The position numbers and the translations under genes are program-made. Of a DNA stretch of 43,016 nucleotides, positions 24,295-41,727 are shown piece after piece. Under the pieces are notes generated by a model. It made no database searches. It was not told the DNA's origin and saw only the letters and a program-made list of their open reading frames with translations. Every line of letters begins with the position of its first letter. Within the stretch, counting starts at the first letter, position 1. The DNA comes from a virus: IMG/VR virus record IMGVR_UViG_3300033143_000464, positions 1-43,016 of that record; one strand, written 5' to 3'.

Positions 24295-25917
24295 ATGAGT
24301 GAATTTTTCGTAAGAGTGCCGAACGACGGTGCTGGTAAAGCAATCAGGCACGAGGTCCAAATTGAGGTTGATTACGTCAATAAGACCGGCGAGTTTGTTA
24401 TAGATGAAACAGTTACATTTATTACTTCGCAGGTAACTGGAAAAATTCTATTAGACCATGTTGGTATTCAACATACCGAAAATCATCTTCATATTAAACT
24501 AACCCATGGTTCACCTACTGATATTCAAGAAGGTGAGAATATGCAGGTTAATGGTGTAACGATCGCGCAAGCTGGAACATCGACCATACCTTTCTATATA
24601 CCATCAACTATTGCTGTTGGTGGTAATAACCCAACCCATCTCCAATATATTGATAAGAAAGGTTCTTCATCAACAAGATTCGATGAAGGTTCTCCTAGAT
24701 TTGATTCGTTTGGTCGTATGCAGGTTTCCAATCCTACAACTATTGGTGACTATTCATTCAACTATGATGGGCGAAATGGACACTTCACTGACACAGCAAC
24801 TAGTTTTGCTACAGTAACACATGATCAAACAGTTGGTTGTATTATACTTACCAATACAACAGATAGTGGTGATCTTGCTAGCAGACGTACTGATGTACAT
24901 CACAAATATATTCCTGGCCAATCGCAGTTATTAGAAATGACGGTTGCTTGCGGTGATGCTGGCAAGGCAAACCAAGTAAGACGTTGGGGACTATTCACTG
25001 ATAATGATGGTCTATTCTTTAGACAGCATGGAGATATGGGTGATCTAGATTTAGTTATTAGGTCCTCTGTAACTGGTTCTGTTGTTGAGAATATTGTGCA
25101 TCAAGCAGAATGGAATACAGATAGACTTGATGGTTCAGGAGATGCATTTAATATTTCTGGATATCTATTAGATACAACTAAAGACAATATTTACTGGATT
25201 GATTATCAATGGTTGGGTGCTGGTAATGTTAGGTTCGGTGTTGAAATTGCTGGTGAACGTATTACATGCCACTCATGGAATAATTCTAACGTAAATAATG
25301 TATCATATATGCGTACTGGTTCACTACCTATATGTGTTGAACAAGAAAATACTGGTTCTGTTGGTTCAATTTCTGAACTGAGATGGTTCTGTGGAACTGT
25401 AAAATCAGAAGGTTCTTTTATGCCTCACATGGGTCAATTTAATATGGCTGGTGATGCTTTAAAAGCTGTTACTGCTGCTGGTGGTCGTGTACCATTAATG
25501 TCAATACGTCCTCGATTAAATTATCAAGGAAAGACAAATAAGATAATGATTCTGCCAAATCAATTCTCTGGTATGGCAGTTGATACGGCAACTAAAGCAT
25601 TAGATGGATATGTACGAGTAGAGTTATGGAAGAATGCTGTTCTAACAGATTCAACATGGTTGACTACAGTATCATCAAACTCCGGTGCAGAGATTGATAC
25701 AGGAGCAACAGCTTTATCTGGTGGTCGAAGAGTAGTATCGATGATGATGAAAGGAAACGATTTCCAATTAATGGGTGAATTATTTAACTATCTACATGAA
25801 AACCTAATCAATAAACAAGATGGCACACAACAGCATTATACTATTGCTGTTACTCCAATGACTGGTGTTGACTTGTCTATTGCCGGTTCATTATCTTGGA
25901 ATGAAGTGAGAGACTAA
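24295..25917 (+). CDS. Fibre-like virion protein with lectin-type beta-sandwich
   Basis: A 540-aa protein. Residues 1-120 form a beta domain with an HLHIKLTHGSPTDIQEGE segment. From about 120 the pattern DEGSPRFDSFGRMQVSNP, FNYDGRNGHFTDT, THDQTVGCIILTN, YIPGQSQLLEMTVACG, RRWGLFTDNDGLFFRQ and QWLGAGNVRFGVEIAGE occurs in order. This is a recurrent phage structural module, apparently a concanavalin-like sandwich, seen in many marine and enteric phages as a surface protein. The C-terminal 160 residues are another beta/alpha domain ending LSIAGSLSWNEVRD. The starts are close (three bases), so it forms an operon with the 23830 and 25921 genes. Confidence 0.68.
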   Translation: MSEFFVRVPNDGAGKAIRHEVQIEVDYVNKTGEFVIDETVTFITSQVTGKILLDHVGIQHTENHLHIKLTHGSPTDIQEGENMQVNGVTIAQAGTSTIPFYIPSTIAVGGNNPTHLQYIDKKGSSSTRFDEGSPRFDSFGRMQVSNPTTIGDYSFNYDGRNGHFTDTATSFATVTHDQTVGCIILTNTTDSGDLASRRTDVHHKYIPGQSQLLEMTVACGDAGKANQVRRWGLFTDNDGLFFRQHGDMGDLDLVIRSSVTGSVVENIVHQAEWNTDRLDGSGDAFNISGYLLDTTKDNIYWIDYQWLGAGNVRFGVEIAGERITCHSWNNSNVNNVSYMRTGSLPICVEQENTGSVGSISELRWFCGTVKSEGSFMPHMGQFNMAGDALKAVTAAGGRVPLMSIRPRLNYQGKTNKIMILPNQFSGMAVDTATKALDGYVRVELWKNAVLTDSTWLTTVSSNSGAEIDTGATALSGGRRVVSMMMKGNDFQLMGELFNYLHENLINKQDGTQQHYTIAVTPMTGVDLSIAGSLSWNEVRD

Positions 25918-25920
25918 TAA

Positions 25921-26586
25921 ATGTCATGGGCTTCATTATCATATGGACATTGGAGTTACTGGGATCTTCAACATAAGATAACAGTAGACTACATTACCAG
26001 ACTTATTTACGTCAATGATGGCGTGACTGAGTTTGATATAAAGATAGATTTATATTCAGACCTCAAAGAACTATGGTCATTAGACCCAACAGATTATAGA
26101 TATAATCGATTCAGGCCTCCGGTTCGTGTAATAGGTGGTGATGCTACGTCCGCTGGTCAGTTCGCTGGTGATATCTACTTCATGCAGAATGGTTGGAGGA
26201 TCGTATATGATCCAACCAAGACATCTGTAACTGGTGTACTATTCTCCGACGATTATGATACTCCTTGGTTATATAGTGGTGATATGTCGCCTGTATATCC
26301 TGCACAGGTATCATCACTTGTAACTGCTGTTCAACCTACTCTCGAAGGTCTGGAGATTCCAACTCCTACCGAGACCGCTGAAGCTGTTAGAACAGAACTT
26401 AATGTTGAGATGTTACATTTGTTAACACTATACAACGGACTAACTCCAGCACAACAAGACGCATTAACAAATATGCCTGATAGTGTTTGGGATAAACCAG
26501 TATCAGAGATGACAACAAGTGGTTCTATTGGTGAATGGGTTGCCAAGAAACTTCTATCTCTCAAGAAATACATTGGTCTAAAATAA
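25921..26586 (+). CDS. Virion-associated protein with conserved LYSDLKELW/NGWRI motifs
   Basis: A 221-aa protein. The N-terminal 130 residues match a family common next to fibre genes: IYVNDGVTEFDIKIDLYSDLKELW (core LYSDLKELW), RPPVRVIGGDATSAGQFAGD and YFMQNGWRIVYDP. The C-terminal part switches to Pro/Thr linkers and helices (LTLYNGLTPAQQDAL, VWDKPVSEM), a pattern that often ends in a small helical module after the fibre domain. No enzymatic motif. It is the last fibre-type gene before the lysis cassette. Function unknown. Confidence 0.65.
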   Translation: MSWASLSYGHWSYWDLQHKITVDYITRLIYVNDGVTEFDIKIDLYSDLKELWSLDPTDYRYNRFRPPVRVIGGDATSAGQFAGDIYFMQNGWRIVYDPTKTSVTGVLFSDDYDTPWLYSGDMSPVYPAQVSSLVTAVQPTLEGLEIPTPTETAEAVRTELNVEMLHLLTLYNGLTPAQQDALTNMPDSVWDKPVSEMTTSGSIGEWVAKKLLSLKKYIGLK

Positions 26587-26621
26587 CTAAATTCTACTAA
26601 ATAGTATATAAAGAGGTAGAT

Positions 26622-26906
26622 ATGTCGGAAGAAGAAAATCAAGAAAAAACACTAACTGCTTTCCAGAAGGCTGATGATTGGTGGGCGAAACATAATATAG
26701 GCACAAGGTTCGCTTTGATTACTATGATTGCTCTCTACGCCTCTCTAGTGTTTGCGTATCTCTTTAACAATGATATGACTAACATTGTACCCGTTATGGA
26801 AATCGTTGGTTGGATTTCATTCGCAGGATTCATATCCATTACACTTGGTGCTAACGGATTGGATAAGATCAAGGACATTATTTTAGCAATAAAGATGAAG
26901 AAATAA
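26622..26906 (+). CDS. Two-TM membrane protein, holin candidate
   Basis: A 94-aa protein with AAGAGG upstream. A charged N-terminus (residues 1-27) is followed by a first membrane segment (FALITMIALYASLVFAYLF, about 30-48), a short polar turn, and a second (PVMEIVGWISFAGFISITLG, about 57-76), then a basic tail ending KMKK. Size, two TM segments and a charged C-terminus fit a class II holin, and the next genes are spanin-like, which supports the call. No endolysin is seen in the window. A non-holin membrane role cannot be excluded. Confidence 0.55.
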   Translation: MSEEENQEKTLTAFQKADDWWAKHNIGTRFALITMIALYASLVFAYLFNNDMTNIVPVMEIVGWISFAGFISITLGANGLDKIKDIILAIKMKK

Positions 26907-26909
26907 ATT

Positions 26910-27410
26910 ATGATTGGATTTTTAGCATTTATACCGAAGATATTCACAGCCATAGGAAACGCTCTTGTATACGCATCAAAGCATCCTAAAGAAGCTGCTC
27001 TTGTCGTCCTACTTGTACTATTGTGGTTTAGTTACAACGGAAAAGAGGATATGAGAGAAACTATATCAGAACAAACGATTGATATAGCGGCATACAAAGA
27101 CGAAATAACGAATCTTGGTGGAATCACTGCCACGAAAGATGAGATTATCAAGGCCAGAGATGAAACTATCACAGACTTTAAAATTGTCATAGGCAAAATA
27201 AAGGTTGAACTTGGTGAACTAAAAGGAAAAGCTGACGACCAAAGAAAACGTATTGCTGATAGTAGCGCTGAAGCGGTTAGACTACAAAACGAATTGAATA
27301 AAGCGACCAGTGGTGTACTCTTTACAGATATACCTATTACAAGCGATTGTCCTGCAGCGGACACTGTAGATTGGGCATTAGAAACAATCCTTGAGGGAGT
27401 ACAGAAATGA
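26910..27410 (+). CDS. i-spanin-like (Rz-type) protein
   Basis: A 166-aa protein. The N-terminal 45 residues hold a membrane anchor (KEAALVVLLVLLWFSYNG, about 27-44, preceded by a further hydrophobic stretch). Residues about 48-133 are a long charged coiled coil (ATKDEIIKARDETITDFK, KGKADDQRKRIADSSAEA), followed by a short Cys-containing end. This is the layout of Rz-type i-spanins, which sit in the inner membrane and bridge the periplasm to an o-spanin. The lipoprotein gene at 27586 is the likely partner. It overlaps the following gene by four bases (ATGA). Confidence 0.75.
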   Translation: MIGFLAFIPKIFTAIGNALVYASKHPKEAALVVLLVLLWFSYNGKEDMRETISEQTIDIAAYKDEITNLGGITATKDEIIKARDETITDFKIVIGKIKVELGELKGKADDQRKRIADSSAEAVRLQNELNKATSGVLFTDIPITSDCPAADTVDWALETILEGVQK

Positions 27411-27589
27411 AAACAGTAAAAGAATTTATCGATGGTGATATGATAGTTGAATCTCTAAATACTAGTGGTGGTATGTCCGATTTGATTAAAGCACTTAGAA
27501 AAGAATTAATTTCCGGTAAGCAAATAACACTTATCGCAAAAGCTAACTCTAATACAAAGGTTAGTTGGAATATAAGTAAAGACATATGA
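27407..27589 (+). CDS. 60-aa protein inserted between the spanin genes
   Basis: A 60-aa protein whose ATG overlaps the i-spanin stop (ATGA) and whose stop overlaps the o-spanin ATG (ATGA), so all three are likely translationally coupled. No transmembrane segment or signal peptide. The start MKTVKEFIDGDMIVES resembles the T4 internal-protein leader MKTYQEFIAEA, with an IVE/S site after residue 15; the middle is one helix (DLIKALRKELISG), then two short strands. It may be a coupling spacer, a regulator of lysis, or a small capsid-internal protein. No family recognised. Confidence 0.55.
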   Translation: MKTVKEFIDGDMIVESLNTSGGMSDLIKALRKELISGKQITLIAKANSNTKVSWNISKDI

Positions 27590-27918
27590 AATATATATTA
27601 ACTATATTACTGGTACTGTCTGTCATCGGATGTACAGAGAAGATTGTCTATAAGGACAGAATCGTAACAAAAGAAACTATTGTAGAAGTTCCTATGATTG
27701 TTGCAGCGGAGTGTGAAGAACCTCCTGCATTTAATCCTGTTCCTACAATGATTCACTCTTTGACGATAGAAGATAAAGGAAATTATGAGAAAATTGTGAA
27801 AGCACTTCTTATTTCCAATCTTCAATCAGAACACGATGTTTCTGTCTGTAAAGGTCATTTAGACGCATACCGAAAAGAAAAGATAAATACCGATAATACT
27901 AAACCAGGACAAGATTAA
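27586..27918 (+). CDS. o-spanin-like (Rz1-type) lipoprotein
   Basis: A 110-aa protein. A lipoprotein signal peptide (MKYILTILLVLSVIGC) has a lipobox ending at Cys16, predicting lipid attachment and outer-membrane anchoring. The rest is soluble, Pro/Glu-containing (VPMIVAAECEEPPAFNPVP), with a C-terminal helix. Together with the i-spanin it would fuse inner and outer membranes at lysis; this implies a Gram-negative host. It is longer than lambda Rz1 (60 aa precursor), which is common in spanin pairs with separate genes. The stop overlaps the next start (TAATG). Confidence 0.78.
   Translation: MKYILTILLVLSVIGCTEKIVYKDRIVTKETIVEVPMIVAAECEEPPAFNPVPTMIHSLTIEDKGNYEKIVKALLISNLQSEHDVSVCKGHLDAYRKEKINTDNTKPGQD
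27883..27889 (+). promoter_or_regulatory. Late-promoter-like motif ATAAATA inside the o-spanin gene end
   Basis: AGATAAATACC lies 35 bases before the ATG at 27918, close to the usual spacing, although inside the 3' end of the o-spanin gene. Confidence 0.45.
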
Positions 27919-28598
27919 TGAAAACCACATTTAGAACAAAGAGTACGCCGATTGTTGCGAATGGTTCAACTACCAAAGACATCGGCGGTACAGCAAATGT
28001 CGCAACTAAACACACATTTCAAGTTGTTGCGGATAAAGGCACAACAGAACTAATCTCTGCTGGCGACTTTGCAGCAGATACCGGTTTCACGAAAGGAACA
28101 GGTTGGACTATTGCAGATGGCGTTGCTTCTTGTGATGGTACACAGACAGCAGATAGTCTATTGACACTAACCACTCCCGTTACAACAGTTGCTAGTACAG
28201 TATACCTAATTGAATTTGATGTTGTAACCATCACCGCAGGTAATGTCGCAGCACAGTTTGACGGCATAGAAGTTATTGCTGACCAGTCAGAAGCGGGAAC
28301 GTACAGGGTACTAGTGGCAGCTGCTGATACATCTGGTGAAGTTGATATCGTTGCTGATGACGAATTTGTTGGTTCTATTGATAATCTATCGCTGAGCGCT
28401 GTGGCAACAACTGGCGTAATTACCATATCAGGTAAAGTTGACAGACAAGACCCTGTCTGTACATACGCAGTAATGGGAACTATCGACCTATCATCAACAA
28501 CTGTACTATTCTGGGAAGGTTCTGTCGAATCATTTGAATTTGGTGCCGGGGCAACATTAGATGGTAGTATTACTGTAGTATCAACTTCAACTAGATAA
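27918..28598 (+). CDS. Virion protein with a CBM-like domain inserted in a small beta protein
   Basis: A 226-aa protein. Residues about 44-162 read like a carbohydrate-binding module of the CBM4/9 jelly-roll type: GDFAADTGFTKGTGWTIADG, then TLTTPVTTVASTVYLIEFDV, ITAGNVAAQFDGIEVIADQ and VGSIDNLSLSA. In order these are the N-x-DF..GW start, the YxIEFDV strand and the IDNLSL end. It is flanked by a separate small beta protein (residues 1-43 and 163-226, TGVITISGKVDRQDPV and LFWEGSVESFEF), as if inserted. It lies just before the neck genes. I infer a surface-exposed sugar-binding accessory protein; its attachment point is unknown. Confidence 0.6.
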   Translation: MKTTFRTKSTPIVANGSTTKDIGGTANVATKHTFQVVADKGTTELISAGDFAADTGFTKGTGWTIADGVASCDGTQTADSLLTLTTPVTTVASTVYLIEFDVVTITAGNVAAQFDGIEVIADQSEAGTYRVLVAAADTSGEVDIVADDEFVGSIDNLSLSAVATTGVITISGKVDRQDPVCTYAVMGTIDLSSTTVLFWEGSVESFEFGAGATLDGSITVVSTSTR

Positions 28599-28609
28599 GG
28601 TAACACAAT

Positions 28610-29788
28610 ATGCCTATCGAATCTGTCAATCAACTTAGAGATTACTGCCTAGAGAGACTTGGGTCTCCTGTAATCAATATCGAAGGAGATGATGCTCAAT
28701 GGAAGAGTAGAATCAATGACGCCATTCAATTCTTTGTTGAACGACATTATGATGGTGTGGAAGAAGTATTCTTCCGAAAGACTGTATTTCCAGAAGACGC
28801 TAAAAACGGATATGTAACAATCGATGGAGATATTGTTGCTGTTACAGAGTATTTCAAACGCGGCGAGACCGGTATGTCATCTGAAATTTGGGATGACGCT
28901 GAATGGAACTATATGGATGAGGTTAACCGACATGGTGGATTCTCTTCTAGTTCATACGGTCTTGTTGACTATTATCTAACAAGAACATATATAAGTCTAT
29001 TAAATGATTTATTTGGTTCATCACATCACGGTTACAATTTCAATAAAGGAACAAATAGATTCTATCCTAAAAGTTCGTTCACAAGTGTTGGTTCTTCTGA
29101 CCTTCTAGGAACTACGGAAGACTACGGTGACTGGACTTCTACGAACTCTACCATCAGTGTTAATGATGCTGAATGGATAAACGGAGAACTAACAGGAATG
29201 ACTCTTACAAGTGATGCATCTGGTGCATTTGACATCACACAGAGTAAAGTTACAGATCATTATGTTTCTGGTACATATACCTCTACCATAATCTTAAAGA
29301 AAGGAACATACACAGGTAATGTTGTATTAAAGATTCTTGACCGTGATGATTATGAATTGGGTAGAGAAATAATTACTCCTACTACCAAGTGGGACCAATA
29401 TTTTGTATCTGGTACTGCTGATGGATACAATATTAATGATTTGAAAGTTGTAATCGAATCCGAAACTGATGCTATTGGTGTCGGAGAGACAATTCTGTTC
29501 CATGGTATCACACTATACAAGAACTCATACATTGTTGTTAAAGGATATAAAGCTGTTTCGGAAGACGATACAGATATTCTTGACGACCCTTGGATGAAGA
29601 GATACGCTACAGCAATGATTAAACAACAATGGGGAAATAACACCAAGAAATATGACGGTGTACAACTACCTGGCGGCATCACAATGAAAGGTACAGAAAT
29701 CTATCAAGAGGCCACAGAAGAAATCGCTCTACTAGAGAGTGAATTTGCCCAACGTTATGAAATGCCTGATATGATCTATATAGGTTAA
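28610..29788 (+). CDS. gp13: Neck protein, T4 gp13-like, with inserted jelly-roll domain
   Basis: A 392-aa protein (T4 gp13 is about 309 aa). Residues 1-155 begin LRDYCLERLGSPVINIEGDD and DAIQFFVERHYDGVEE, and residues about 306-392 contain SYIVVKGYKAV, DPWMKRYATAMIKQQWGNN and VQLPGGITMKGTEIY; both are gp13 signatures. Between, about residues 156-305 (nt 29075-29525), is a beta domain with GTYTSTIILKKGTYTGNVVLK, TTKWDQYFVSGTADGYN and ETILFHGITLYKN, reading like a jelly-roll (CBM/galactose-binding type). These strings are quoted by their ends where longer. gp13 with gp14 seals the packed head for the tail. The insertion would make neck protrusions, probably host- or surface-interacting (inference). 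Confidence 0.85.
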   Translation: MPIESVNQLRDYCLERLGSPVINIEGDDAQWKSRINDAIQFFVERHYDGVEEVFFRKTVFPEDAKNGYVTIDGDIVAVTEYFKRGETGMSSEIWDDAEWNYMDEVNRHGGFSSSSYGLVDYYLTRTYISLLNDLFGSSHHGYNFNKGTNRFYPKSSFTSVGSSDLLGTTEDYGDWTSTNSTISVNDAEWINGELTGMTLTSDASGAFDITQSKVTDHYVSGTYTSTIILKKGTYTGNVVLKILDRDDYELGREIITPTTKWDQYFVSGTADGYNINDLKVVIESETDAIGVGETILFHGITLYKNSYIVVKGYKAVSEDDTDILDDPWMKRYATAMIKQQWGNNTKKYDGVQLPGGITMKGTEIYQEATEEIALLESEFAQRYEMPDMIYIG

Positions 29789-29792
29789 TACC

Positions 29793-30467
29793 ATGGCAAC
29801 CTCTAAGTATTTCAACCTCTACCAGTCTGGCCACACAGGCGAACAAGATATGTTGCATAACATGTCCAAAGAGTGTATCCAGATTAATGGCCTTGATTGT
29901 TACTATCTTCCTCGTACTCTTGTTAAAGAAGACTCCTTATTTGGAGAAGATGTACTATCAGAGTTTAATACAACCTACGAAATAGAAGCTTATGTGGAGT
30001 CATTTGATAATTATGAAGGCAGTGGTGATTTATTGGCATCGTTCGGACTTAATGTAACGGATGAACTTAATCTTACCGTTGCAACACGAAGATTCACCGA
30101 AGTAACATCAATGAAAAAACCTTTAGAGGGTGACCTTATATATTTTCCGCTAGGAAAAGCGTTGTTTGAAATTAAATTTGTGGAAGATGAACAGCCGTTC
30201 TATCCACTAGGAACTCTACCTTCATATTCTTTAAGATGTAAGTTATATGACCACAGTCATGAGACTATTACTCCACTATCTGCGGTAGACGGGTTACTTA
30301 CTACAGATGATGATATTAATGCGGCATATGATACACCAACATCGACAACAGATGGTACAACAGAACCAACAACTATCGATGACCCATATGCCAATAATGA
30401 TGAGATCGAGACAGAAGCTATAAATGTTATTGATTTCTCAGAATCCAACCCATTTGGAAGTTTTTAA
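29793..30467 (+). CDS. gp14: Neck protein, T4 gp14-like
   Basis: A 224-aa protein (T4 gp14 is 256 aa). The family motifs are clear: EQDMLHNMSKECIQINGLDC, YYLPRTLVKEDSLFGED, EIEAYVESFDNYEGSGD and FGLNVTDELNL. After about residue 165 it becomes a Thr/Asp-rich linker (TDGTTEPTTIDDPYAN) and ends FGSF. gp14 forms with gp13 the collar that closes the filled head. It follows gp13 by 4 bases and precedes gp15 by 3, as in T4. Confidence 0.9.
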   Translation: MATSKYFNLYQSGHTGEQDMLHNMSKECIQINGLDCYYLPRTLVKEDSLFGEDVLSEFNTTYEIEAYVESFDNYEGSGDLLASFGLNVTDELNLTVATRRFTEVTSMKKPLEGDLIYFPLGKALFEIKFVEDEQPFYPLGTLPSYSLRCKLYDHSHETITPLSAVDGLLTTDDDINAAYDTPTSTTDGTTEPTTIDDPYANNDEIETEAINVIDFSESNPFGSF

Positions 30468-30470
30468 TAA

Positions 30471-31256
30471 ATGTTTGATACAGGTACAGGTTCTACACAT
30501 TTCTACCATGGTTCAGCACGTAAGATTGTAGCTGCATTTGGTTCTATGTTCAACAAAGTTGTTGGAGCTAGATATGATAGCGATGGAAACATTGTGAAGA
30601 AATTCGCGGTGCCGATTGCTTACTCAGGACAACAACACTACATTAAGAAACTAAGACAAGACCTATCTGAAAATGCTGTTGCTATTGATACTGTGTTGCC
30701 TAGAATGTCGTTCTCCCTTGAGTCATTAATATACGACCCAACACGACAATTACATCCTGCAAGTTATATGAAGGTCAATGACCCTAACGACTACAGTATC
30801 TTACACAAGAGATGGAATCCAGTACCATATACATACTACTTTAATGTTGGTGTTTACTCAAAGAACATGGAAGACGGTCTACAACTAATTGAACAAATAG
30901 TTCCTTGGTTCTCTCCTTCTTTCAATATGCCAGTAATAATGGTTGATGATGTGACAATAGATGTTCCTGTTACACTTACAAATGTTACATTCGAAGATAA
31001 CGATATGGAAGGATTCACCGAAAACCGTATGTTAACTTGGAATATATCATTCGAAGCAAAAGGACTGTTCTTCAAACCTATCAATACTCCTACTGTTGTT
31101 GATACCGCTATCATTGATATGCATGATGATTCTGAGTTCTCAGAACCTGTAGAACTAGGAACAATAACAGAATTAGATCCTGTATACATTGTTACAGAAG
31201 ATAAATATAATATCGCTGACGATGACGGATACCTCATCGTAGCTACTGAAACTTAA
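30471..31256 (+). CDS. gp15: Tail completion and sheath stabiliser, T4 gp15-like
   Basis: A 261-aa protein (T4 gp15 is 272 aa). Typical order of motifs: FYHGSARKIVAAFGSMFN, VPIAYSGQQHYIKKLRQD, VLPRMSFSLESLIYDPTRQL, then WNPVPYTYYFNVGVYSKN and a C-terminal LTWNISFEAKGLFFKP. gp15 caps the tail, holding the last sheath ring and docking to the neck. The last 55 residues are an acidic extension not expected in T4 (HDDSEFSEPVELG). It completes a canonical 13-14-15 cluster. Confidence 0.92.
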   Translation: MFDTGTGSTHFYHGSARKIVAAFGSMFNKVVGARYDSDGNIVKKFAVPIAYSGQQHYIKKLRQDLSENAVAIDTVLPRMSFSLESLIYDPTRQLHPASYMKVNDPNDYSILHKRWNPVPYTYYFNVGVYSKNMEDGLQLIEQIVPWFSPSFNMPVIMVDDVTIDVPVTLTNVTFEDNDMEGFTENRMLTWNISFEAKGLFFKPINTPTVVDTAIIDMHDDSEFSEPVELGTITELDPVYIVTEDKYNIADDDGYLIVATET

Positions 31257-31266
31257 AGGTAATAAA

Positions 31267-31962
31267 ATGGCAATAAAGCGTATAAGAGATTTAGACGAAA
31301 ACACCACAGCTGATGATACAGACTTAGTTCTTACAGAAAGCGCGTCAGGCACCACATTAAAGACTAAGTTGATTAACCTTCTTAAGCGCGTATTCGCTTT
31401 CGAAGATGTATGGGAAGATTATGTTGTTGCTTTGGATGCATCAAACACACTTTCAGCTAATAACTCACCCACAATGGAAGAATTCAGAAGTGGTATATAC
31501 GCACTCAGATATCCTGTAGACATTAAAGAACATGAAGCATTCTTCACGTTTCACTTTCACCACGATATGAAACCTGATACAGATATGCATATTCACTGTC
31601 ACTTTACAACAAATGATGAATCTCCGACAGGAAATGTAAAATGGAATGTTGATTATATGTATGCTAGAGGGTATGAAGCTGATACGTTCCCTGCTCCTAC
31701 AACACTATCCGTTGTTGCACCTGTCGGCGCACAATATTCTCATCAAATCACCGATGATGAGGCTATGATTATTTCTGCCACAGCAAATGATTTGGAACCA
31801 GATGGTCTTCTTATGGGTAGAGTATACAGAAATACAGAAGACATTGAAGATACTTGTGATTCTGACACTTTCTTACTATATGTAGATATTCACTACGTTA
31901 AGAATCGCGTTGGAACAACAGAAAGAAATCGTCCATTCACTTCTGGTGGATTTGGTGCATAA
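31267..31962 (+). CDS. Fibre-like structural protein between gp15 and gp16
   Basis: A 231-aa protein with AAAGG upstream. The N-terminus (KRIRDLDENTTADDTDLVLTE) is a fibre-base attachment segment of the DL..T.ADDTDLxLxE type. The C-terminal 180 residues form a beta-sandwich with many histidines: HEAFFTFHFHHDMKPDTDMH, IHCHF, VKWNVDYMYARGYEADTF, and a last strand LLYVDIHYVKNRVGTTERN. I recall the pattern from virion proteins of environmental phages, function unknown. The His-rich face could bind metal. Its last base is the first base of the next start (ATAATG), so it is co-translated. Confidence 0.62.
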   Translation: MAIKRIRDLDENTTADDTDLVLTESASGTTLKTKLINLLKRVFAFEDVWEDYVVALDASNTLSANNSPTMEEFRSGIYALRYPVDIKEHEAFFTFHFHHDMKPDTDMHIHCHFTTNDESPTGNVKWNVDYMYARGYEADTFPAPTTLSVVAPVGAQYSHQITDDEAMIISATANDLEPDGLLMGRVYRNTEDIEDTCDSDTFLLYVDIHYVKNRVGTTERNRPFTSGGFGA

Positions 31963-32354
31963 TGCTTACATATAAACAACGTCTATCAGAACTCAAGGTC
32001 ACAAAGAACCAGTTGAATCAATTGGAGAAGACTTTGGATTCGTTGTTCAAAGAACTCAATATCGATATTGTGTTCACCAATCATTTCCTCGATAGAGTCA
32101 ATGATGAACGTAATGTTGAACAGATTAAGGTTCGTGAACTAAGAGACTTGTTCAGAAAAGAATTTGCCAAATATAAGAACGAATTCAAAGGAATGACACC
32201 AGGCCTACAGGCCATACTAAAAGACCTTGAGACAAATGTGAATGTGCCGTTTGTTATCAAATGGGACGAGAAGAATAAAGAACTTGACCTTATCGGAAAG
32301 ACTGTTATGAGAAAGAAAAATTTCAAGTCTAGCAACAAAGAATACAAAGTCTAG
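31962..32354 (+). CDS. Conserved phage protein with capsid-targeting-like N-terminus and HFLDRVN motif
   Basis: A 130-aa protein. It begins MLTYKQRLSE|L, which lines up residue for residue with the T4 internal-protein capsid-targeting sequence MKTYQEFIAE|A: L/I at 8 and E at 10 make a gp21-type site. The rest holds a conserved block, IDIVFTNHFLDRVNDERN, then EQIKVRELRDLFRKEF and NVPFVIKW. I recall this block in marine T4-like phages and it is loosely like small RelE/BrnT-type RNases (no proof). Its stop overlaps the GTG of the next gene. If both readings hold, it is a protein packed in the head and delivered into the cell. Confidence 0.62.
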   Translation: MLTYKQRLSELKVTKNQLNQLEKTLDSLFKELNIDIVFTNHFLDRVNDERNVEQIKVRELRDLFRKEFAKYKNEFKGMTPGLQAILKDLETNVNVPFVIKWDEKNKELDLIGKTVMRKKNFKSSNKEYKV

Positions 32355-33094
32355 TGTTATCGTTTAGAGAATTTAATGAAGATTTAACCTATGAGGATTG
32401 GGAACTCGCCCTATCCTATGTGGAGAGTGATTATCTTAATGAAGGACTACTTGATAACTTCAAGATTCCTGCGAAAATTGCTAAATTGTTCAATACAATA
32501 AAGAAAGAAATTGGCATCATCATTGATAAGTTCAAACTCAATATTAAAGATGCGGTTAATGCTTTTAAAGAAAGACACGTATTCGGTATATTGAAGGGAG
32601 TTGGATTCAGCTTTAAATCCCTATACAGACTATACTTGGATGCATATAATCTTATTGTGAAAGGTCTATTCAAGACATTTGAAGATATTCACAAGACTAA
32701 GATTTTTCAAAAGATTCAAAAAGGTACCATTAAGATTGATGAGGTATTGGCGAAATATCCTATACTAAAGAAACTTACTGGCCCTATTGTTGCCGGATTA
32801 TTACTATATATCTGGTTGAATATGTCCTTTATAGGCGACCTTGAGTATGATATGAACATTGTAAATATGTTCTCAGCATTACAAGGAAACTTCTCCGTTG
32901 AGGACCTATTCGGAAGTAAAGATGGATTGTTGTTGATTACACTATTCGGTAGTGGTATAACATTGGGTTTATCTGCGCCATGGCTCGGAAAAACTGTACT
33001 AAATATGGTACTGGCTCTTGTATATACAGGACTCAAATATTCAAAATCAGACAACAAATTGATAAATAGATTACACAGCTACATAAACAATTAA
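32354..33094 (+). CDS. Membrane-segment protein with capsid-targeting-like N-terminus
   Basis: A 246-aa protein with GTG start overlapping the upstream TAG by one base. It begins MLSFREFNEDL, similar to MKTYKEFLAEA of the next gene, and has a possible gp21 site LNE/G at residues 28-31. Residues about 60-130 are amphipathic helices (Lys/Phe-rich). There are membrane-type segments at about 140-160 (LTGPIVAGLLLYIWLNMSFI) and about 192-225 (LLLITLFGSGITLGLSA, then VLNMVLALVYTGL). An ejected membrane-inserting internal head protein is one explanation; an ordinary phage membrane protein is another. No family recognised. Confidence 0.6.
   Translation: MLSFREFNEDLTYEDWELALSYVESDYLNEGLLDNFKIPAKIAKLFNTIKKEIGIIIDKFKLNIKDAVNAFKERHVFGILKGVGFSFKSLYRLYLDAYNLIVKGLFKTFEDIHKTKIFQKIQKGTIKIDEVLAKYPILKKLTGPIVAGLLLYIWLNMSFIGDLEYDMNIVNMFSALQGNFSVEDLFGSKDGLLLITLFGSGITLGLSAPWLGKTVLNMVLALVYTGLKYSKSDNKLINRLHSYINN
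33062..33068 (+). promoter_or_regulatory. Late-promoter-like motif ATAAATA at the end of the upstream gene
   Basis: TTGATAAATAGATT lies 44 bases before the ATG at 33106, the same spacing as intergenic copies, though inside the 3' end of the 32354 gene. Confidence 0.5.
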
Positions 33095-33105
33095 AAGGTA
33101 TACAA

Positions 33106-33447
33106 ATGAAGACATATAAGGAATTCCTTGCGGAAGCAAAATTAGCAGAAGAACAATCTTACAAAGAGTTTTTCACAGCCGCACTAAAGAAGTTTGGTGT
33201 AACAGAGCCAGACCAACTGGAAGGTGACAAGAAGAAGGAATTCTTTGATTATGTGGATGCGAATTGGGAAGGCGAGAACGAAGTTGACGAAGCAGCTAAA
33301 TGTGACGATGACGAAGAACTGACCGAAGAAGACGATGACAAAGAAGAAAAGTCTGATGATGACGATGATGATTCGGAAGACAAAGAAGAAAAGTCTGATG
33401 ATGACGATTCAGAAGATGATGACGAAGAAAAAGAAGACAAAGAATAA
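33106..33447 (+). CDS. Acidic internal head-type protein with T4-like capsid-targeting sequence
   Basis: A 113-aa protein with AAAAGG upstream. MKTYKEFLAE|A is nearly identical to the T4 internal protein leader MKTYQEFIAE|A, which directs IPI-III into the prohead and is cut by gp21 after Glu10. Residues 11-60 are helical (EEQSYKEFFTAALKKFG), and from 63 on the chain is a nearly pure Asp/Glu/Ser/Lys tail with a 14-residue repeat (DKEEKSDDDDDDSE). A polyacidic tail could offset basic core proteins or mimic DNA. It is followed by a terminator, so it is the last gene of its unit. The leader similarity is strong; the role in the head is inferred. Confidence 0.75.
   Translation: MKTYKEFLAEAKLAEEQSYKEFFTAALKKFGVTEPDQLEGDKKKEFFDYVDANWEGENEVDEAAKCDDDEELTEEDDDKEEKSDDDDDDSEDKEEKSDDDDSEDDDEEKEDKE
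33337..33408 (+). repeat. Tandem 42-base repeat in the acidic gene
   Basis: A 30-base perfect direct repeat at 33337-33366 and 33379-33408, offset 42 bases (14 codons), encoding DKEEKSDDDD. Likely a slippage or duplication unit. Confidence 0.9.
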
Positions 33448-33457
33448 AACCTTTTAA

Positions 33458-33482
33458 TGAGGACCTTCGGGTCCTCAGTTTT
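33458..33482 (+). terminator. Rho-independent terminator
   Basis: An 8-bp perfect stem TGAGGACC (33458-33465) with GGTCCTCA (33470-33477), TTCG loop, then GTTTTG. It ends the 33106 gene transcript just before the small terminase gene. Confidence 0.85.
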
Positions 33483-33496
33483 GTTATGGTATTATA

Positions 33497-35522
<2,026 letters not shown>

Positions 35523-35523
35523 A

Positions 35524-35547
35524 TATAAATACAAGTTTTAATAAATA
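35524..35547 (+). promoter_or_regulatory. Two late-promoter-like motifs, one a perfect TATAAATA
   Basis: TATAAATA at 35524-35531 is an exact T4 late consensus box; a second ATAAATA is at 35541-35547, 48 bases before the sheath ATG at 35589. They drive the sheath/tube unit, whose end is the terminator at 37846-37871. Confidence 0.72.
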
Positions 35548-35588
35548 TATCTGTAAAGATTAATAATCAAGAATTTTAGGAGAAATAT

Positions 35589-37304
35589 ATGGGATTCAGT
35601 TTAAGCCCTTCTATCGATGTACAAGAGATAGACCTAACAACATCTGTACCTGCTGTTGCAACCTCTATCGGTGGCATTGTTGGGGACTTTGAGTGGGGTC
35701 CTGTTGACGAAAGACGTATTATCGCATCAGAAGATCAACTAGTAAAAGTGTTCGGATTGCCGAACAACACAAACGCGAAAGATTGGTGGTCAGCTGCTAA
35801 CTTCCTTGCGTACTCTGGTAACCTTAACGTTATTCGTTCTATTGATGCTGCTGCTATGAACGCATGTGCAAAATGGAACGCTGATGAGACAGTACCAACT
35901 ACACCACAACAAATAAAGAATCAAGACGCTTTTGAAGCTGCAACAATCACTGATGCTGCTGTTATCGCAAAGTATCCTGGTGTTTACGGAAACAAAGTTA
36001 CCGTTTCAATGATTGGTTTCGATGAAATTGCATACGAAGAGACTGCTGGTGATGTGTGGGACAATTGGAATTACAACAGTAGTTTCGAATATGCTCCTGA
36101 TACAGCGGGTGATATTTGGATTGTTGTAATGTATGATGGTGTTATCGTTGAAAAATACACAGTTAGTTCAAACGTTGATGCGCTTGACTATCTAGGAAAC
36201 ACTAACTATATTGAAACAGTAGTAAATCGTAAATCTGAATATATTTGGATTGATGCTTCTAATCTATTAGTTGATGCCCTTGCTGCAGACCTAACAACCG
36301 CTACGCCAGACTTAGTTCCGGATTTGTGGTATCTTGGTGACGTATTAAATGTTTTGATTGATGGATATATCAATACAGCTGTTGCTCATAACGGACACAA
36401 CTTTGTACTTACACAAGGTTTAGATGACGCTCCTGATGACGCTGCATTGCAACTGTCTTGGGACATTATGGCAAACCCAGAAGAATTTGATGTTAATCTT
36501 CTTATTACTGGTGCTGCTTCTGTAGCTGTTGCTCAATATGTAGTACAGAATGTTGCTGAAGTTCGTAAAGATTGTGTTGCTTTCTTCTCTCCACAAGAAA
36601 CAAACGTTGTTTCTGATGGTACTCCTGCGGTATCTATTGTTGGTGCTAAACCTGCGATTGCTACTACATACGGCGTTATGGACGGTAACTACAAGTATCA
36701 GTTTGACAAATACAATGATGTATATCGTTGGTTGCCACTGAACGGCGACATCGCTGGTCTATGTGCGCGAGTTGATGACACAAATGACCCATGGTGGTCA
36801 CCTGCTGGTTACAACCGTGGTCAAATCAAGAATGTTCAGAAGTTGGCTTTCCAACCTACTAAAGCACAAAGAGATGAACTATACAAGAACGGTATCAACA
36901 GTGTAATGACTACTAAAGGTGATGGTACTCTTCTTTATGGAGATAAGACATTCACAATTAAACCTAGTGCATTTGGTTATATCAATGTTCGTAGATTGTT
37001 CATTGTTATGGAAAAGGCGATTGCGACTGCTTCTAAGTACTCACTATTCGAATTCAATGATGCCTTCACACGTAATCGTTTCTACAATATGGTAGAACCT
37101 TTCCTACGTGACATCAAAGGTCGTAGAGGTGTATACGAATATGCCGTTGTTGTTGATGAACGTGTTAATACTCCAGAAGTTATTGACCGCGGTGAATTCC
37201 GTTGTGACATCTATATCAAACCTTCTCGTTCTATCCAGAACATTAGTTTGAGTTTCATTGCCACTAAGACTGGTGTTGATTTCGATGAAATTATTAACGC
37301 TTAA
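35589..37304 (+). CDS. gp18: Tail sheath protein, T4 gp18-like
   Basis: A 571-aa protein (T4 gp18 is 659 aa). The N-terminus (SPSIDVQEIDLTTSVPAVAT) is the sheath handshake strand region, and the C-terminal domain, the conserved core of contractile sheaths, contains LFEFNDAFTRNRFYNMVEPF, RDIKGRRGVYEYAVVVDE and RCDIYIKPSRSIQNISLSF (residues about 486-562). The length difference lies in the outer domains (about 95-360). AGGAGA precedes the start. It is followed by the tube gene within 16 bases. Confidence 0.95.
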   Translation: MGFSLSPSIDVQEIDLTTSVPAVATSIGGIVGDFEWGPVDERRIIASEDQLVKVFGLPNNTNAKDWWSAANFLAYSGNLNVIRSIDAAAMNACAKWNADETVPTTPQQIKNQDAFEAATITDAAVIAKYPGVYGNKVTVSMIGFDEIAYEETAGDVWDNWNYNSSFEYAPDTAGDIWIVVMYDGVIVEKYTVSSNVDALDYLGNTNYIETVVNRKSEYIWIDASNLLVDALAADLTTATPDLVPDLWYLGDVLNVLIDGYINTAVAHNGHNFVLTQGLDDAPDDAALQLSWDIMANPEEFDVNLLITGAASVAVAQYVVQNVAEVRKDCVAFFSPQETNVVSDGTPAVSIVGAKPAIATTYGVMDGNYKYQFDKYNDVYRWLPLNGDIAGLCARVDDTNDPWWSPAGYNRGQIKNVQKLAFQPTKAQRDELYKNGINSVMTTKGDGTLLYGDKTFTIKPSAFGYINVRRLFIVMEKAIATASKYSLFEFNDAFTRNRFYNMVEPFLRDIKGRRGVYEYAVVVDERVNTPEVIDRGEFRCDIYIKPSRSIQNISLSFIATKTGVDFDEIINA

Positions 37305-37320
37305 TTAGAGGATTATAAAA

Positions 37321-37821
37321 ATGAATGTAACAGATTTCAAAAGTAAATTCGCTTCTCTAGCGCGTCCTAACAGATTCAAAGTTTCCGGCTTCACCGCCGG
37401 AGGTCTTGGTGAAGACTTGTCGTTCATGTGTAAAGCTGCTAACTTACCAGCAGTTACTACAGGTGTTGTAGAAGTTCCATATAACGGTCGTGTTATTAAA
37501 GTTGCTGGCGACAGAACATATGAAGAATGGACAGTAACAATTATGGTTAACAAAGATTTTGTTACCCGTAAGGCATTTGAAGATTGGGCTAATAAAATCA
37601 ACGACCCAGAAACAAATGTTGGTGCTGGAAGTCATGCCGATTATAAGGCAGACGGTATGGTTGAACAACTTGACGCAACCGGACAAGTTCTCGCAGCATA
37701 CAATATTGTTGGCGCATGGCCATCACTTGTTTCAGAAGTTGAACTTTCTTGGGATTCAAACGATACCGTGTCTGAATTCACAGTGACCTTCTCATATGAT
37801 TACTGGACTCGTTCAGCATAA
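37321..37821 (+). CDS. gp19: Tail tube protein, T4 gp19-like
   Basis: A 166-aa protein (T4 gp19 is 163 aa). FASLARPNRFKVSGFTAGGL, FMCKAANLPAVTTGVVEVPY, EEWTVTIMVNKDFVTRKAFE and the final VELSWDSNDTVSEFTVTFSY are the usual order of strands in contractile tail tubes. It forms the inner tube that passes DNA. The strong terminator 24 bases after its stop closes the sheath/tube unit. Confidence 0.95.
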   Translation: MNVTDFKSKFASLARPNRFKVSGFTAGGLGEDLSFMCKAANLPAVTTGVVEVPYNGRVIKVAGDRTYEEWTVTIMVNKDFVTRKAFEDWANKINDPETNVGAGSHADYKADGMVEQLDATGQVLAAYNIVGAWPSLVSEVELSWDSNDTVSEFTVTFSYDYWTRSA

Positions 37822-37845
37822 TAAGAATCACTTTCAAGTGACCCA

Positions 37846-37871
37846 AAAAAAGGGACTTCGGTCCCTTTTTT
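37846..37871 (+). terminator. Rho-independent terminator
   Basis: An 11-bp perfect stem AAAAAAGGGAC (37846-37856) with GTCCCTTTTTT (37861-37871), TTCG loop and a terminal T-run. It separates the tail sheath/tube unit from the portal unit. Confidence 0.93.
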
Positions 37872-37879
37872 ATTGTTTG

Positions 37880-37886
37880 ATAAATA
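37880..37886 (+). promoter_or_regulatory. Late-promoter-like motif ATAAATA
   Basis: TTTGATAAATAAAGG follows the terminator by nine bases and lies 36 bases before the portal ATG at 37916, the same terminator-then-promoter layout as at 17691-17735. Confidence 0.68.
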
Positions 37887-37915
37887 AAGGACAATGATAA
37901 TATCAGGAAATCATA

Positions 37916-39541
37916 ATGGCACAAGTTAAATTATTCGGCTTAGAGTTCAATTTAAAGAAGTCTGAACAGATAAAACAAGAGAAGTCAGACGATAAGAATA
38001 CAAAGTCATTTGTTGAAAAACAAGATAATGACGGCGCTATTGTATTAGAGGATGGAATTAATAATTCATTCTTATATAGTTTTGATGAAACCTTCGCGTC
38101 AGAAAAACAACAAATTGAGAAATATCGTATGATGGCTCTTGATGTGGACGTTGATTGGGCCGTTGATGATATTGTAAATGAATCTTTCACATTTGATAGT
38201 GCTGAGAAGGTTGTAGAGGTAGACCTTACAAACACCGAACTCACAGAAAATATCAAAACAAAAATTACAGACGAATTTGACCATGTATTAAATCTCCTTG
38301 ATTTCAATAATAAAGGTGATGAGATTTTCAGACGTTGGTTTGTTGACGGACGTATCTTTACACACAAACTAGTCAATACAAAGAAGCCGGCAGAAGGTAT
38401 TAAACAGCTAAGATTTGTCGACCCAGTTAATATTAAGAAGGTTGTTGAACAAAACTTTGTTGAGGAAGAAGGTGTACGGGTATATAAGGAACCTACAATT
38501 TATTATGTGTATAAAAAACATAGTGAAAATGTAATAGGTGATACTATTCAAACCACAATGATTAAGGTACCTGAAAAGGCCATAACATATGTACACTCTG
38601 GTATCAAAGACCCAAAATCTGGTAGCGTTCTATCATACCTACACAGAGCAATCAAACCACTTAATCAACTCAACATGCTTGAAGATGCGACCGCTATCTA
38701 TAAGATTGCACGTGCTCCCAGTCGTAGAGTGTTCTATGTAGATATTGGTAACCTTCCAAAGTCACAAGCCGAGCAGTATATGCGCGGTATCATGAACAAC
38801 TACAAGAACAAGATGGTTTATGATTCATCAACAGGCGAGATGAAAGAACAAAGAAATCATATGTCTATGTTGGAAGACATTTGGTTGCCACGTAGAGAAG
38901 GTAGTCGTGGTACAGAGGTATCTACACTTGATGGTGCTAGTGGTTTCTCTGAGATGGATGAAGTAATATACTTCAAGAACAAACTATTCAGAGCTCTACA
39001 AATTCCTAAATCACGTATCGAAGAAGGCGCACAATTCAATGTTGGTCGTTCTAGTGAGATTTCCCGTGATGAGGTTAAGTTCAACAAATATGTAGGCAAA
39101 CTACGTAAGAAGTTCTCTGAGTTGCTTAGAGATATTTTGAAGACACAACTATTACTCAAAAAGGTTATCACCTATGATGACTGGCACGAAATTAAGAATA
39201 GTATAAACTTCGACTTCAATACAGATTCATACTTTGCCGAACTTAAAGAGACCGAGATACTAACCAGTAGATTAGAAGTACTTGCAGAGATAGATCAGTA
39301 CGTAGGAAAGTATTACAGTCTGCTTGATGTTAAGAGGGATGTATTGAAACAATCTGACGAACAAATAAAAGAAACCCAAGATCAGATAAATAAAGAAGAA
39401 GAAGAAGGTTTAATTGGCGACGGTGATGACGAAGATGGTGAAGATGAAGACACCGAAGATAAAGAAGCAGCACCAATGCCAGTACAGATTGTTGACCCAG
39501 ACGAACAAACAAAAGAAAAAGATGATAAAGAGGATTCATAA
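37916..39541 (+). CDS. gp20: Portal vertex protein, T4 gp20-like
   Basis: A 541-aa protein (T4 gp20 is 524 aa). Motifs in order: YRMMALDVDVDWAVDDIVNE near 63-82, LRFVDPVNIKKV, ITYVHSGIKDPKSG and SYLHRAIKPLNQLNMLEDAT in the middle, MLEDIWLPRREGSRG then EVSTLDGASG near 318-345, and RALQIPKSRIEEG. The final 50 residues are very acidic. The dodecameric portal starts prohead assembly, is the gp17 docking site and binds the neck. The stop overlaps the next ATG (TAATG). Confidence 0.95.
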   Translation: MAQVKLFGLEFNLKKSEQIKQEKSDDKNTKSFVEKQDNDGAIVLEDGINNSFLYSFDETFASEKQQIEKYRMMALDVDVDWAVDDIVNESFTFDSAEKVVEVDLTNTELTENIKTKITDEFDHVLNLLDFNNKGDEIFRRWFVDGRIFTHKLVNTKKPAEGIKQLRFVDPVNIKKVVEQNFVEEEGVRVYKEPTIYYVYKKHSENVIGDTIQTTMIKVPEKAITYVHSGIKDPKSGSVLSYLHRAIKPLNQLNMLEDATAIYKIARAPSRRVFYVDIGNLPKSQAEQYMRGIMNNYKNKMVYDSSTGEMKEQRNHMSMLEDIWLPRREGSRGTEVSTLDGASGFSEMDEVIYFKNKLFRALQIPKSRIEEGAQFNVGRSSEISRDEVKFNKYVGKLRKKFSELLRDILKTQLLLKKVITYDDWHEIKNSINFDFNTDSYFAELKETEILTSRLEVLAEIDQYVGKYYSLLDVKRDVLKQSDEQIKETQDQINKEEEEGLIGDGDDEDGEDEDTEDKEAAPMPVQIVDPDEQTKEKDDKEDS

Positions 39542-39711
39542 TGGAAAGTAAGTATAGTTTCGATTCAGCGTCAAAATTCAAAGATATTGTTAACGCTAGA
39601 TTGAGTAAAATAGCCCACAACAAGATTGGTGATTTTAAGAAATTGCTATCGAAAACAATTTTTACAGGTAAAAAAGATGATAAAGAAGTTAATTCAAGCG
39701 ATAGTGAATAA
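39541..39711 (+). CDS. Small 56-aa protein, possible prohead core component
   Basis: A short frame of 56 codons plus stop: ATG at 39541-39543 overlaps the portal stop by one base (TAATG), and the TAA is at 39709-39711. The peptide starts MESKYSFDSASKFKDIVNAR and ends KDDKEVNSSDSE: a helical N-terminus and a mixed-charge tail. In T4 the position after gp20 holds the prohead core genes 67 and 68. Translational coupling to the portal and a 35-base overlap with the next gene support it. Function inferred from position only. Confidence 0.6.
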   Translation: MESKYSFDSASKFKDIVNARLSKIAHNKIGDFKKLLSKTIFTGKKDDKEVNSSDSE

Positions 39712-40000: not shown

Positions 40001-40014
40001 AGGAAATGAATAAC

Positions 40015-40671: not shown

Positions 40672-40691
40672 AAATAGAGATTTTTAATTTA

Positions 40692-40698: not shown

Positions 40699-40702
40699 AT
40701 AC

Positions 40703-40720: not shown

Positions 40721-40751
40721 CGATTTTAACATGTTAGGAGTAATCTAAAAA

Positions 40752-41693: not shown

Positions 41694-41727
41694 CTTTTAT
41701 TTTAAAATAGCATAGGAAAATATAAAA

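Follow-up and report, generated by a model that had tools for sequence, protein, structure and literature searches.

Three genes beside the terminase genes of an uncultured T4-type phage probably encode head-packaged proteins with cleavable leaders

Introduction

Directly before its terminase genes, a T4-type phage known from the IMG/VR record IMGVR_UViG_3300033143_000464 carries three consecutive genes, here called P1, P2 and P3, whose products start with sequences resembling the capsid-targeting sequence (CTS) of phage T4. Are these leaders genuine tags for loading the phage head, and what would they deliver? A preliminary description of this DNA had read the genes as a cassette of tagged head-internal proteins. 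We analysed the record, which is 43,016 bases long with 39% GC and whose plus strand bears a module of T4-type structural genes; this whole stretch is called the window below. We conclude that P1 to P3 are probably proteins of a T4-superfamily phage that are packaged into the head, trimmed by a gp21-type protease and most likely injected into the host, and that P1 may be a BECR/RegB-like ribonuclease.

The CTS, its cutting by gp21 and the injection of the cargo are already known from T4. In the internal protein IPIII, the first ten residues are enough for loading into the head; targeting depends mainly on residues 4 and 7 and processing on residues 8 and 10, and Asp at position 10 blocks processing but not targeting (PMC9026906). 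The T4 internal proteins are basic (PMC9026906). Ip1 to Ip3 have only the leader in common, and after injection they inhibit different type IV restriction enzymes (PMC12373910). The sequence MKTYQEFIAEA, previously ascribed to all of IPI to IPIII, indeed starts IPII and IPIII, but the propeptide of IPI is only similar (PMC9026906). Other T4 head proteins vary at the N-terminus (Alt, MELITELFDE; gp24, MAKINELLRES; gp22, MLKEQLIAEA). The tag has been described for T-even phages, where the cargo blocks restriction enzymes, and the open-access literature, seen mostly as passages, yielded no T4-type CTS leaders with cargo such as that described here outside this group. What appears to be new is therefore the occurrence of such leaders in distant T4-type phages, a BECR-like cargo on which leaders with only LxE in common are interchanged, and a dense cassette in an environmental phage.

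Results and Discussion

Leaders of P1, P2 and P3

The open reading frames and N-termini given in the preliminary description were borne out. P1 (31962-32354, plus strand, ATG start overlapping the stop codon of the preceding gene) encodes 130 amino acids starting MLTYKQRLSEL; P2 (32354-33094, plus strand) encodes 246 amino acids starting MLSFREFNEDL, and its start codon, a detail added here, is a GTG inside the P1 stop codon; P3 (33106-33447, plus strand, ATG) encodes 113 amino acids starting MKTYKEFLAEA. The genes lie, as had been stated, directly before those of the terminase small subunit gp16 (33497-33928, plus strand; phrog_445, E 7.2e-21; Pfam DNA_Packaging, E 4.7e-9) and large subunit gp17 (33915-35522, plus strand; phrog_5989, E 1e-60; Terminase_6N, E 9.1e-22), and a gp21-type prohead protease gene is present at 40006-40671 on the plus strand (Peptidase_S77, PF03420, E 2.6e-44; phrog_207, E 9.5e-75). 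By analogy with T4, the presumed docking site of the leaders is the gp22-type scaffold or core protein encoded at 40752-41693 on the plus strand (T4_CASP, E 1.7e-57).

The claimed likeness to the T4 CTS holds in full for P3 and in part for P1 and P2. The P3 leader MKTYKEFLAE (33106-33135, plus strand) has all four T4 determinants (Y4, F7, L8 and E10), and 9 of its first 11 residues are identical to those of IPII and IPIII; a gp21 cut is predicted after E10. The same cut is predicted for the P1 leader MLTYKQRLSE (31962-31991, plus strand), which has Y4, L8 and E10 but, as a further detail, carries Arg in place of the Phe that occupies position 7 in T4 and is important for targeting; elsewhere in this phage, tags use F, Y, H or L at this position. 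P2 has F4 and F7, but its N8 and D10 are not processing residues, so that targeting without a cut at residue 10 would be expected. Its predicted propeptide comprises residues 1-30 (32354-32443, plus strand), from MLSFREF to LNE30, and is suggested by the conservation of L28 and E30 in the motif L28-N-E30-G31.

Thirty-seven IMG/VR loci, including one from the same phage, and one phage record hold homologues of P2. In an alignment of 21 rows that includes the window, L28 is present in 21 and E30 in 20, the N-terminus being otherwise variable, and 19 rows begin M-x-[SKN]-[FY] if one extra Met in locus L086 is ignored. The row that lacks both E30 and the leader comes from phage NCTB (257,877 bases, circular), in which an S77 protease was not found. 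L28 and E30 are invariant in the 20 remaining rows, which do not represent 20 independent cases because many are close relatives.

In P1, residues 13-126 (31998-32339, plus strand) match phrog_23027 (E 9e-20); a second match is phrog_14518 (E 1.6e-10). A tblastn search with P1 returned 17 phage records, all below 60% identity, 15 of them from Sinorhizobium, Methylophilales and Flavobacterium phages and 2 from Uetakevirus. The match starts at residue 13 in 11 records, at residue 11 in 2 and at residue 34 in 4; the conserved part of the family thus mostly begins at residue 13, directly past the leader. From 100 related stretches in IMG/VR, 80 were kept, and the loci hold 88 P1-family open reading frames. 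In fourteen of these the domain is part of a fusion and lies far from the N-terminus, and the remainder represent 37 distinct leaders. The motif [LI]xE is found in 29 of these 37 and in 23 of the 25 that are 8-25 amino acids long, a range picked after the list was seen and within which leaders of one type are related. For these 25, shuffling gave 6.2 leaders with the motif (maximum 14 in 5000 rounds) and random gene N-termini gave 5.2 (maximum 13 in 2000 rounds). The leaders fall into at least three unrelated types, MK[ST][FY]xx[FH]LxE, MIKLxx[LI]LxE and M[RK][IL]xE, a diversity comparable to that among the T4 head proteins. The expected conservation of leaders among homologues was thus seen in two forms: P2 homologues mostly keep the leader together with L28xE30, and P1 copies mostly keep LxE within unrelated leaders.

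Elsewhere the P1 domain is fused to nucleotidyltransferase-like proteins (in L079 by a Pfam match, in phiM12 by eye), and two Uetakevirus records, including Kp4865-1, hold a leaderless stand-alone homologue. An S77 protease was not detected in these two records, one of which is a 19-kb fragment, so that its missing protease says little.

Two further points concern the same families. In Flavobacterium phage immuto (locus L122), MKKSQLRQIIKEAL, MRLLELLREAKEA and MKKLIRIVEAGEK are the starts of the P1-domain protein and its neighbours and perhaps represent another type of leader with LxE or IxE at its end. A shared ancestry of P1 and P2 was considered and rejected: a profile comparison showed no significant similarity, and the only aligned stretch was the first 11 columns (probability 0.6%).

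The P3 leader is followed by a mobile domain of 45 residues (residues 17-62, FFDYVDANW type; 33154-33291, plus strand; phrog_28651, E 5.5e-6), which occurs in 34 loci including its own, and by an acidic tail at the C-terminal end. In some other loci this domain stands behind different CTS-like leaders, namely MLSFIDFLTE (L124), MKSFKDFITE (L153) and MLNYKNFMKE (L155).

A tag of this kind might also direct its proteins elsewhere in the virion or the cell, such as the tail or a membrane, with a convergent resemblance to T4. The single hydrophobic stretch of P2 (centred at residue 154) would suit such a destination, but the P3 tag is nearly identical to a demonstrated head-loading tag of T4, and T4 substrates have LxE as their gp21-type site, which makes this explanation improbable.

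Leaders compared with chance

To what extent such N-termini exceed chance was assessed in the related loci and in the phage itself. Among 1801 distinct genes in the window and the related loci, 42 matched a CTS regular expression, compared with 2 of 13,268 internal start codons. Residues of the targeting type (an aromatic residue at position 4, an aromatic residue or His at position 7) were found at 87 of 4653 candidate starts and 28 of 14,129 internal ones. The two halves of the leader are linked, as [ILVM]xE at positions 8-10 occurred in 35 of the 87 targeting-type starts and in 57 of 1943 other genes (relatives of P1 to P3 included).

Since the loci had been fetched with P1 to P3 as queries, their relatives (111 of 2083 proteins) were removed for a count by family, in which one random member represented each of 817 families. 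The full leader was still present in 12 families, two of them in the extension of this phage described below. Permutation of columns across genes, which keeps the bias at start codons, gave a mean of 0.04 full leaders (maximum 2 in 1000), and shuffling within each peptide gave a mean of 0.01 (maximum 1 in 300). With a slightly different exclusion, targeting-type residues stood at 39 of 3908 starts (17 with the full form) and at 24 of 10,106 internal ones (0 full); by family, the figures were 26 of 748 for the targeting type and 12 of 748 for the full form. This excess over permutation and shuffling indicates that the leader is a real, portable element. It also answers positively the check proposed earlier, namely conservation of the leader alongside variation in the remainder, since unrelated proteins repeatedly carry such leaders.

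The leaders might instead be a by-product of A-rich codons after the start, or chance. The window is AT-rich, MK[ST]F costs little to encode, and a loose DNA pattern for the leader, when reversed, still found 4 sites in 18 records. This explanation was rejected by the column permutation, which keeps the early-codon bias and yet predicts 0.04 full leaders where 12 were observed, and LxE at 8-10 is strongly tied to the aromatic residues; we consider it very improbable.

For this phage, the window was taken together with the 42.8 kb that an overlapping contig adds to it. Of 215 candidate starts in this set, 12 have targeting-type residues, compared with 7 among the 887 internal start codons (Fisher 3.2e-5); 5 of the 12 look incidental (26910 in the window and four in the extension). 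A relaxed full form matched 7 of 215 candidate starts and 0 of 887 internal ones (9.9e-6). Both definitions were widened after the data had been seen, and the strict T4-like form matches P3 alone.

The P1 domain and the mature proteins

The 39 rows of the P1 alignment are 37-57% identical to P1, and H41, F42, R45, D48, R50, N51, E59, N94, P96, T114, M116, R117 and K118, among others, are invariant. P1 gave no Pfam or NCBIfam match over the curated cut-off, and its profile reached a best E of 0.28 against PDB sequences. AF2 gave a weak model (pLDDT 63.5, with 45-51 for the four others). With this model, VIA-align ranked T4 RegB first (Z 6.4, rmsd 4.5, 122 residues aligned), a score that lies in the range of chance matches; the next matches were ParE/RelE toxins (Z 4.6 and lower) mixed with ClpX-type ATPases, and many of the 50 matches listed were RelE/ParE-type toxins. 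Foldseek gave a similar mixture of ClpX and RelE-type toxins, with a best E of 0.13 that is not significant.

At the sequence level, no significant match to the RegB family was obtained, hhalign giving a probability of 1.2%, and only the position of His48 is kept. One of 41 P1-family members matches Pfam REGB_T4 (PF10715) with E 0.0099, and the insignificant hhalign register places H41, in the HFxDR motif of P1, on RegB His48, one of the two catalytic histidines. The other, His68, aligns with R65 in a non-invariant column; no invariant residue of P1 corresponds to it, and one RegB relative has Arg at this position. A PBECR-named Pfam model was absent among the 22 families matched by the 41 members at E 0.1, a search in which the HMMER filters drop weak matches.

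The active site of BECR RNases usually consists of a His in an N-terminal helix and a Ser or Thr in a late strand (PMC5512222). In the weak P1 model, H41 lies in helix 40-46 and T114 just past strand 107-113; both residues, which are invariant and also kept in the Uetakevirus copies, fit this usual site. On balance, a BECR fold for the P1 domain is slightly more likely than not, and an RNase function is somewhat less likely than the fold itself. P1 might instead be packaged without being a nuclease, as a BECR-shaped binding protein or inhibitor or as a protein of another fold. The low model confidence, the indecisive Z score and the position of R65 leave room for this, and T4 Ip1 to Ip3 are inhibitors, not enzymes (PMC12373910). 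Set against it are the catalytic look of the invariant H41, R45, R50, N51, E59, T114, R117 and K118, the REGB_T4 match of one family member, the hhalign placement of H41 on His48, and the RelE/ParE-type toxins among the structural matches. A non-nuclease P1 is a serious possibility that we nevertheless do not prefer.

RegB itself is expressed from an early promoter, starts MTINTEVF without a CTS and belongs to another sequence family than P1. The PBECR RNases differ from P1 in another way: they are parts of large multidomain or MuF/portal proteins or solo phage forms, and in the passages available a cleavable 10-residue tag is undescribed for them (PMC5512222).

For P2, no Pfam or NCBIfam match over the curated cut-off was found, and its profile had only weak matches to PDB sequences (best E 0.0059, to SigA-binding protein). 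An all-helical, low-confidence model was obtained (pLDDT 59.9). P2 is basic past residue 30 (pI 9.66) and P1 has a pI of 9.55; being basic like the T4 internal proteins, mature P1 and P2 were counted in favour of a location inside the head.

A second cassette in the same phage

The overlapping contig (G001, 60,825 bases) is identical to window positions 25037-43016 over 17,980 bases and extends 42.8 kb beyond the end of the window. At 52,693-56,053 of this contig (7194-10554 of locus L191) there are eight consecutive genes, all with CTS-like starts, so that the cassette reading of the preliminary description is supported and the tagged set is larger than it had supposed. In gene order, the leaders are MSKTIQEYLNEA, MKSFKQHLNE, MLKFKQYISE, MKSFKTFNEA (at the second start of its open reading frame), MKTVKEFLAE, MKTVKEFLSE, MKSFKQYNEA and MHSFEEYITT; five of the eight carry [LI]xE with its Glu at residue 10 or 11, and the other three do not. 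A leaderless NT5C-type nucleotidase gene (L191 6675-7166) precedes the cassette, and a ninth tagged gene, MKTIKDLLTE, lies 6 kb upstream. Within the window, an open reading frame for 60 amino acids at 27407-27589 on the plus strand (MKTVKEFIDGDMIVES) may be a fourth tagged gene; its leader MKTVKEFIDG resembles MKTVKEFLAE and MKTVKEFLSE and lacks both E10 and an aromatic residue 4.

The last gene of the cassette belongs to the Zeta_toxin family (28.6 bits, Pfam cut-off 22.3; E 1.2e-6) and has relatives in 206 phage records. Their N-termini include MKSFKQFTESTLTEA in Klebsiella phage P-KP2, MKKFSEFIKLEEK in Aeromonas phage 65 and, inside a longer annotated open reading frame, MNFLNFSEQYDQYLEEA in Vibrio phage EniLVp02; an S77 protease is present in all three phages. 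The cassette proteins c3 and c5 were found in IMG/VR only in this contig and one further record, with identical copies in both, and c3 had no match in the phage collection. A PHROG match of c5 to 'internal head protein' (E 2.3e-5) disappeared once the 10-residue leader was removed, and the first 30 residues alone had no PHROG match; the lost match is no sign of shared cargo, and this interpretation was dropped. An ADP-ribosyltransferase assignment of c3 was made by eye only, had no support from any tool and is not claimed.

These genes bear on another explanation, in which the leaders are genuine propeptides cut by gp21 but the proteins are building parts of the core or neck, comparable to T4 gp67 and gp68 or to the head role of IPIII. 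The genes of P1 to P3 all adjoin head genes, P3 is very acidic (pI 4.05), and T4 IPIII mutants have head-assembly defects (PMC9026906); moreover, a P1-domain fusion lies 0.7-2.4 kb from P2 in six loci of distant phages (L086 and L113-L117), some of them near-duplicates. Against this explanation stand the nuclease-like conserved residues, nucleotidyltransferase-like fusions and leaderless podophage copies of the P1 domain. The second cassette carries a kinase-type cargo, and the lack of relatives of c3 and c5 outside two records with identical copies suits accessory cargo better. We therefore regard structural parts as unlikely and prefer packaged, probably injected cargo.

The T4-type late promoter TATAAATA was not enriched in the window (3 sites, 4.35 expected). 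Locus L191 has three, a number reached in 13 of 200 shuffles; one lies at 6572-6579, 95 bases before the nucleotidase gene that leads the cassette (6675), and another at 1029-1036, 31 bases before a further tagged gene (1068).

Leaders and S77 proteases in other phages

When 29 whole records were searched with a strict DNA pattern for the 10-residue leader, 15 sites turned up, distributed over 9 of the records, and the reversed pattern found 0. In T4 its three sites are ipII, ipIII and 61.1. A looser pattern, run on 18 records, found 7 sites in 4 of 11 S77-positive records and 0 in the 7 S77-negative ones. In the few examined phages in which S77 was undetected (NCTB and the two Uetakevirus, one of these a fragment), the P1 or P2 domain is leaderless. 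When ten proteins of related phages were compared with Pfam, leaders of the regular-expression type were found on members of Zeta_toxin (L077), NT5C (L055), DUF6267 (L077) and DUF5824 (L050), and two CTP_transf_like proteins (L120, L079) have a leader-like start by eye only. The leader-bearing proteins of L061 and L042 had no Pfam match.

Besides the weak P1 model and its insignificant matches, several observations speak against packaged and trimmed cargo. The rows compared are related, so that counts are not independent, and some regular expressions were widened after the data had been seen. P1 has Arg7, P2 has N8 and D10, and 2 of the 21 P2 rows lack the M-x-x-aromatic start. Among the distinct P1-family leaders, 8 of 37 are without [LI]xE, four of these being nearly leaderless, and in the 14 fusions among the 88 open reading frames the domain is away from the N-terminus. 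The strict DNA pattern is confined to 9 of the 29 records, fails to pick up ipI and Alt in T4 and has no sites in the S77-positive phages phiM12, Melnitz and immuto, and is thus specific but far from complete; the reversed looser pattern also gives 4 sites. S77 was detected in 18 of the 29 records, and 10 of the other 11 are IMG/VR contigs, possibly fragments.

Proposed route of the proteins and comparison with known systems

From the sequences, the homologies, the leader statistics and the presence of the protease gene, and with T4 as precedent for the mechanism, we infer docking, cleavage, packaging and ejection of P1 to P3, and an enzyme activity. During prohead assembly, the short N-terminal tag, with its aromatic residue 4 and, in P2 and P3, also residue 7, would dock each protein to the gp22 core. 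Next, a cut after LxE by the gp21-type protease would fall behind Glu10 in P1 and P3 and behind Glu30 in P2, and the mature proteins would stay with the DNA in the head and most likely enter the host with it. There, at the onset of infection, RNA may be the target of P1 as a BECR/RegB-like endoribonuclease; P2 would be a basic helical protein, possibly membrane-associated, and P3 a small acidic protein. P1 to P3 would be part of a larger set including the second cassette of eight tagged genes, one of which encodes a putative kinase of the Zeta-toxin family.

With T4 IPI to IPIII, the proteins share a 10-residue N-terminal tag with aromatic residues 4 and 7, L or I at position 8 and E10, placed on unrelated proteins in a genome with an S77 protease. 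They differ in that no sequence relation was found beyond the tag, in a cargo that includes a BECR-like domain in P1 and a Zeta-type kinase in the second cassette, in the apparent cut of P2 at residue 30 and in the Arg7 of P1. The gene order differs as well: T4 ipII and ipIII lie beside denV and e, whereas the P1 to P3 genes are in the structural module beside the terminase. T4 Alt, an ADP-ribosyltransferase packaged in the head, is likewise a head-delivered enzyme, and its short propeptide (MELITELFDE) resembles the third leader class of the P1 family; it is another type of enzyme, however, and no Alt homologue was noted among ten window proteins scanned against families. In DarB of phage P1, the first 30 residues load a reporter into the capsid, but that assembly system is a different one with no separate scaffold (PMC9024508), and the likeness is one of description.

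We tentatively propose, as an idea that may well prove too broad, that distant T4-superfamily phages use a common, sequence-flexible code for head loading, a short tag ending in LxE and cut by an S77 protease, for exchangeable effectors. These would include BECR/RegB-like RNases, Zeta-type kinases, nucleotidyltransferases, nucleotidases and unknown proteins. If this is true, nameless genes of distant environmental phages become predicted injected proteins, which could be listed for great numbers of uncultured phages from their genomes alone, and an RNase and kinases would join the cargo known to work as soon as infection begins. The phage studied here would deliver about a dozen such proteins, among them an RNase acting before phage gene expression.

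Neighbouring genes and further observations

The gp23 major capsid protein gene (41728-43016, plus strand), assigned by homology, is cut by the end of the window and has a candidate propeptide site LNE48/A; T4 gp23 loses 65 residues at LTE/A. The gp22-type scaffold protein opens with a four-cysteine, zinc-ribbon-like stretch, CPDC...CPEC (Zn_ribbon_3, E 0.014, under the Pfam cut-off), which seems unusual for a scaffold protein that gp21 normally degrades. Between the portal and gp21 genes, a basic open reading frame at 39626-40000, with a probable ATG start at 39677, has a weak match to the prohead family phrog_1064 (E 0.052) and is perhaps a gp67/gp68 counterpart. In locus L188, the open reading frame MTMLTSIYTKTNYRKNLEIYWRQFYPEWSIPEGYHVHH (2077-2721, minus strand), directly after gp23, looks by eye like an HNH homing endonuclease.

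CTS-like leaders were also noticed on annotated genes of other phages. In P-SSM2 (NC_006883), the cytidyltransferase PSSM2_194 (158143-159417) starts with a leader that matches the pattern, and the small gene PSSM2_115 (100269-100529), beside an annotated virion structural protein, has a CTS-like leader. The uvsW.1 genes of RB43 (NC_007023, 139565-139795) and RB49 (NC_005066, 102832-103068), both annotated as DNA helicase, have the leader-like starts MKSFTEFVNE and MISFKRFLVE, respectively. In T4 (NC_000866), gene 61.1 (18966-19130), annotated as hypothetical with 54 amino acids, starts MKTFKEFIKED and is a candidate for a further internal protein.

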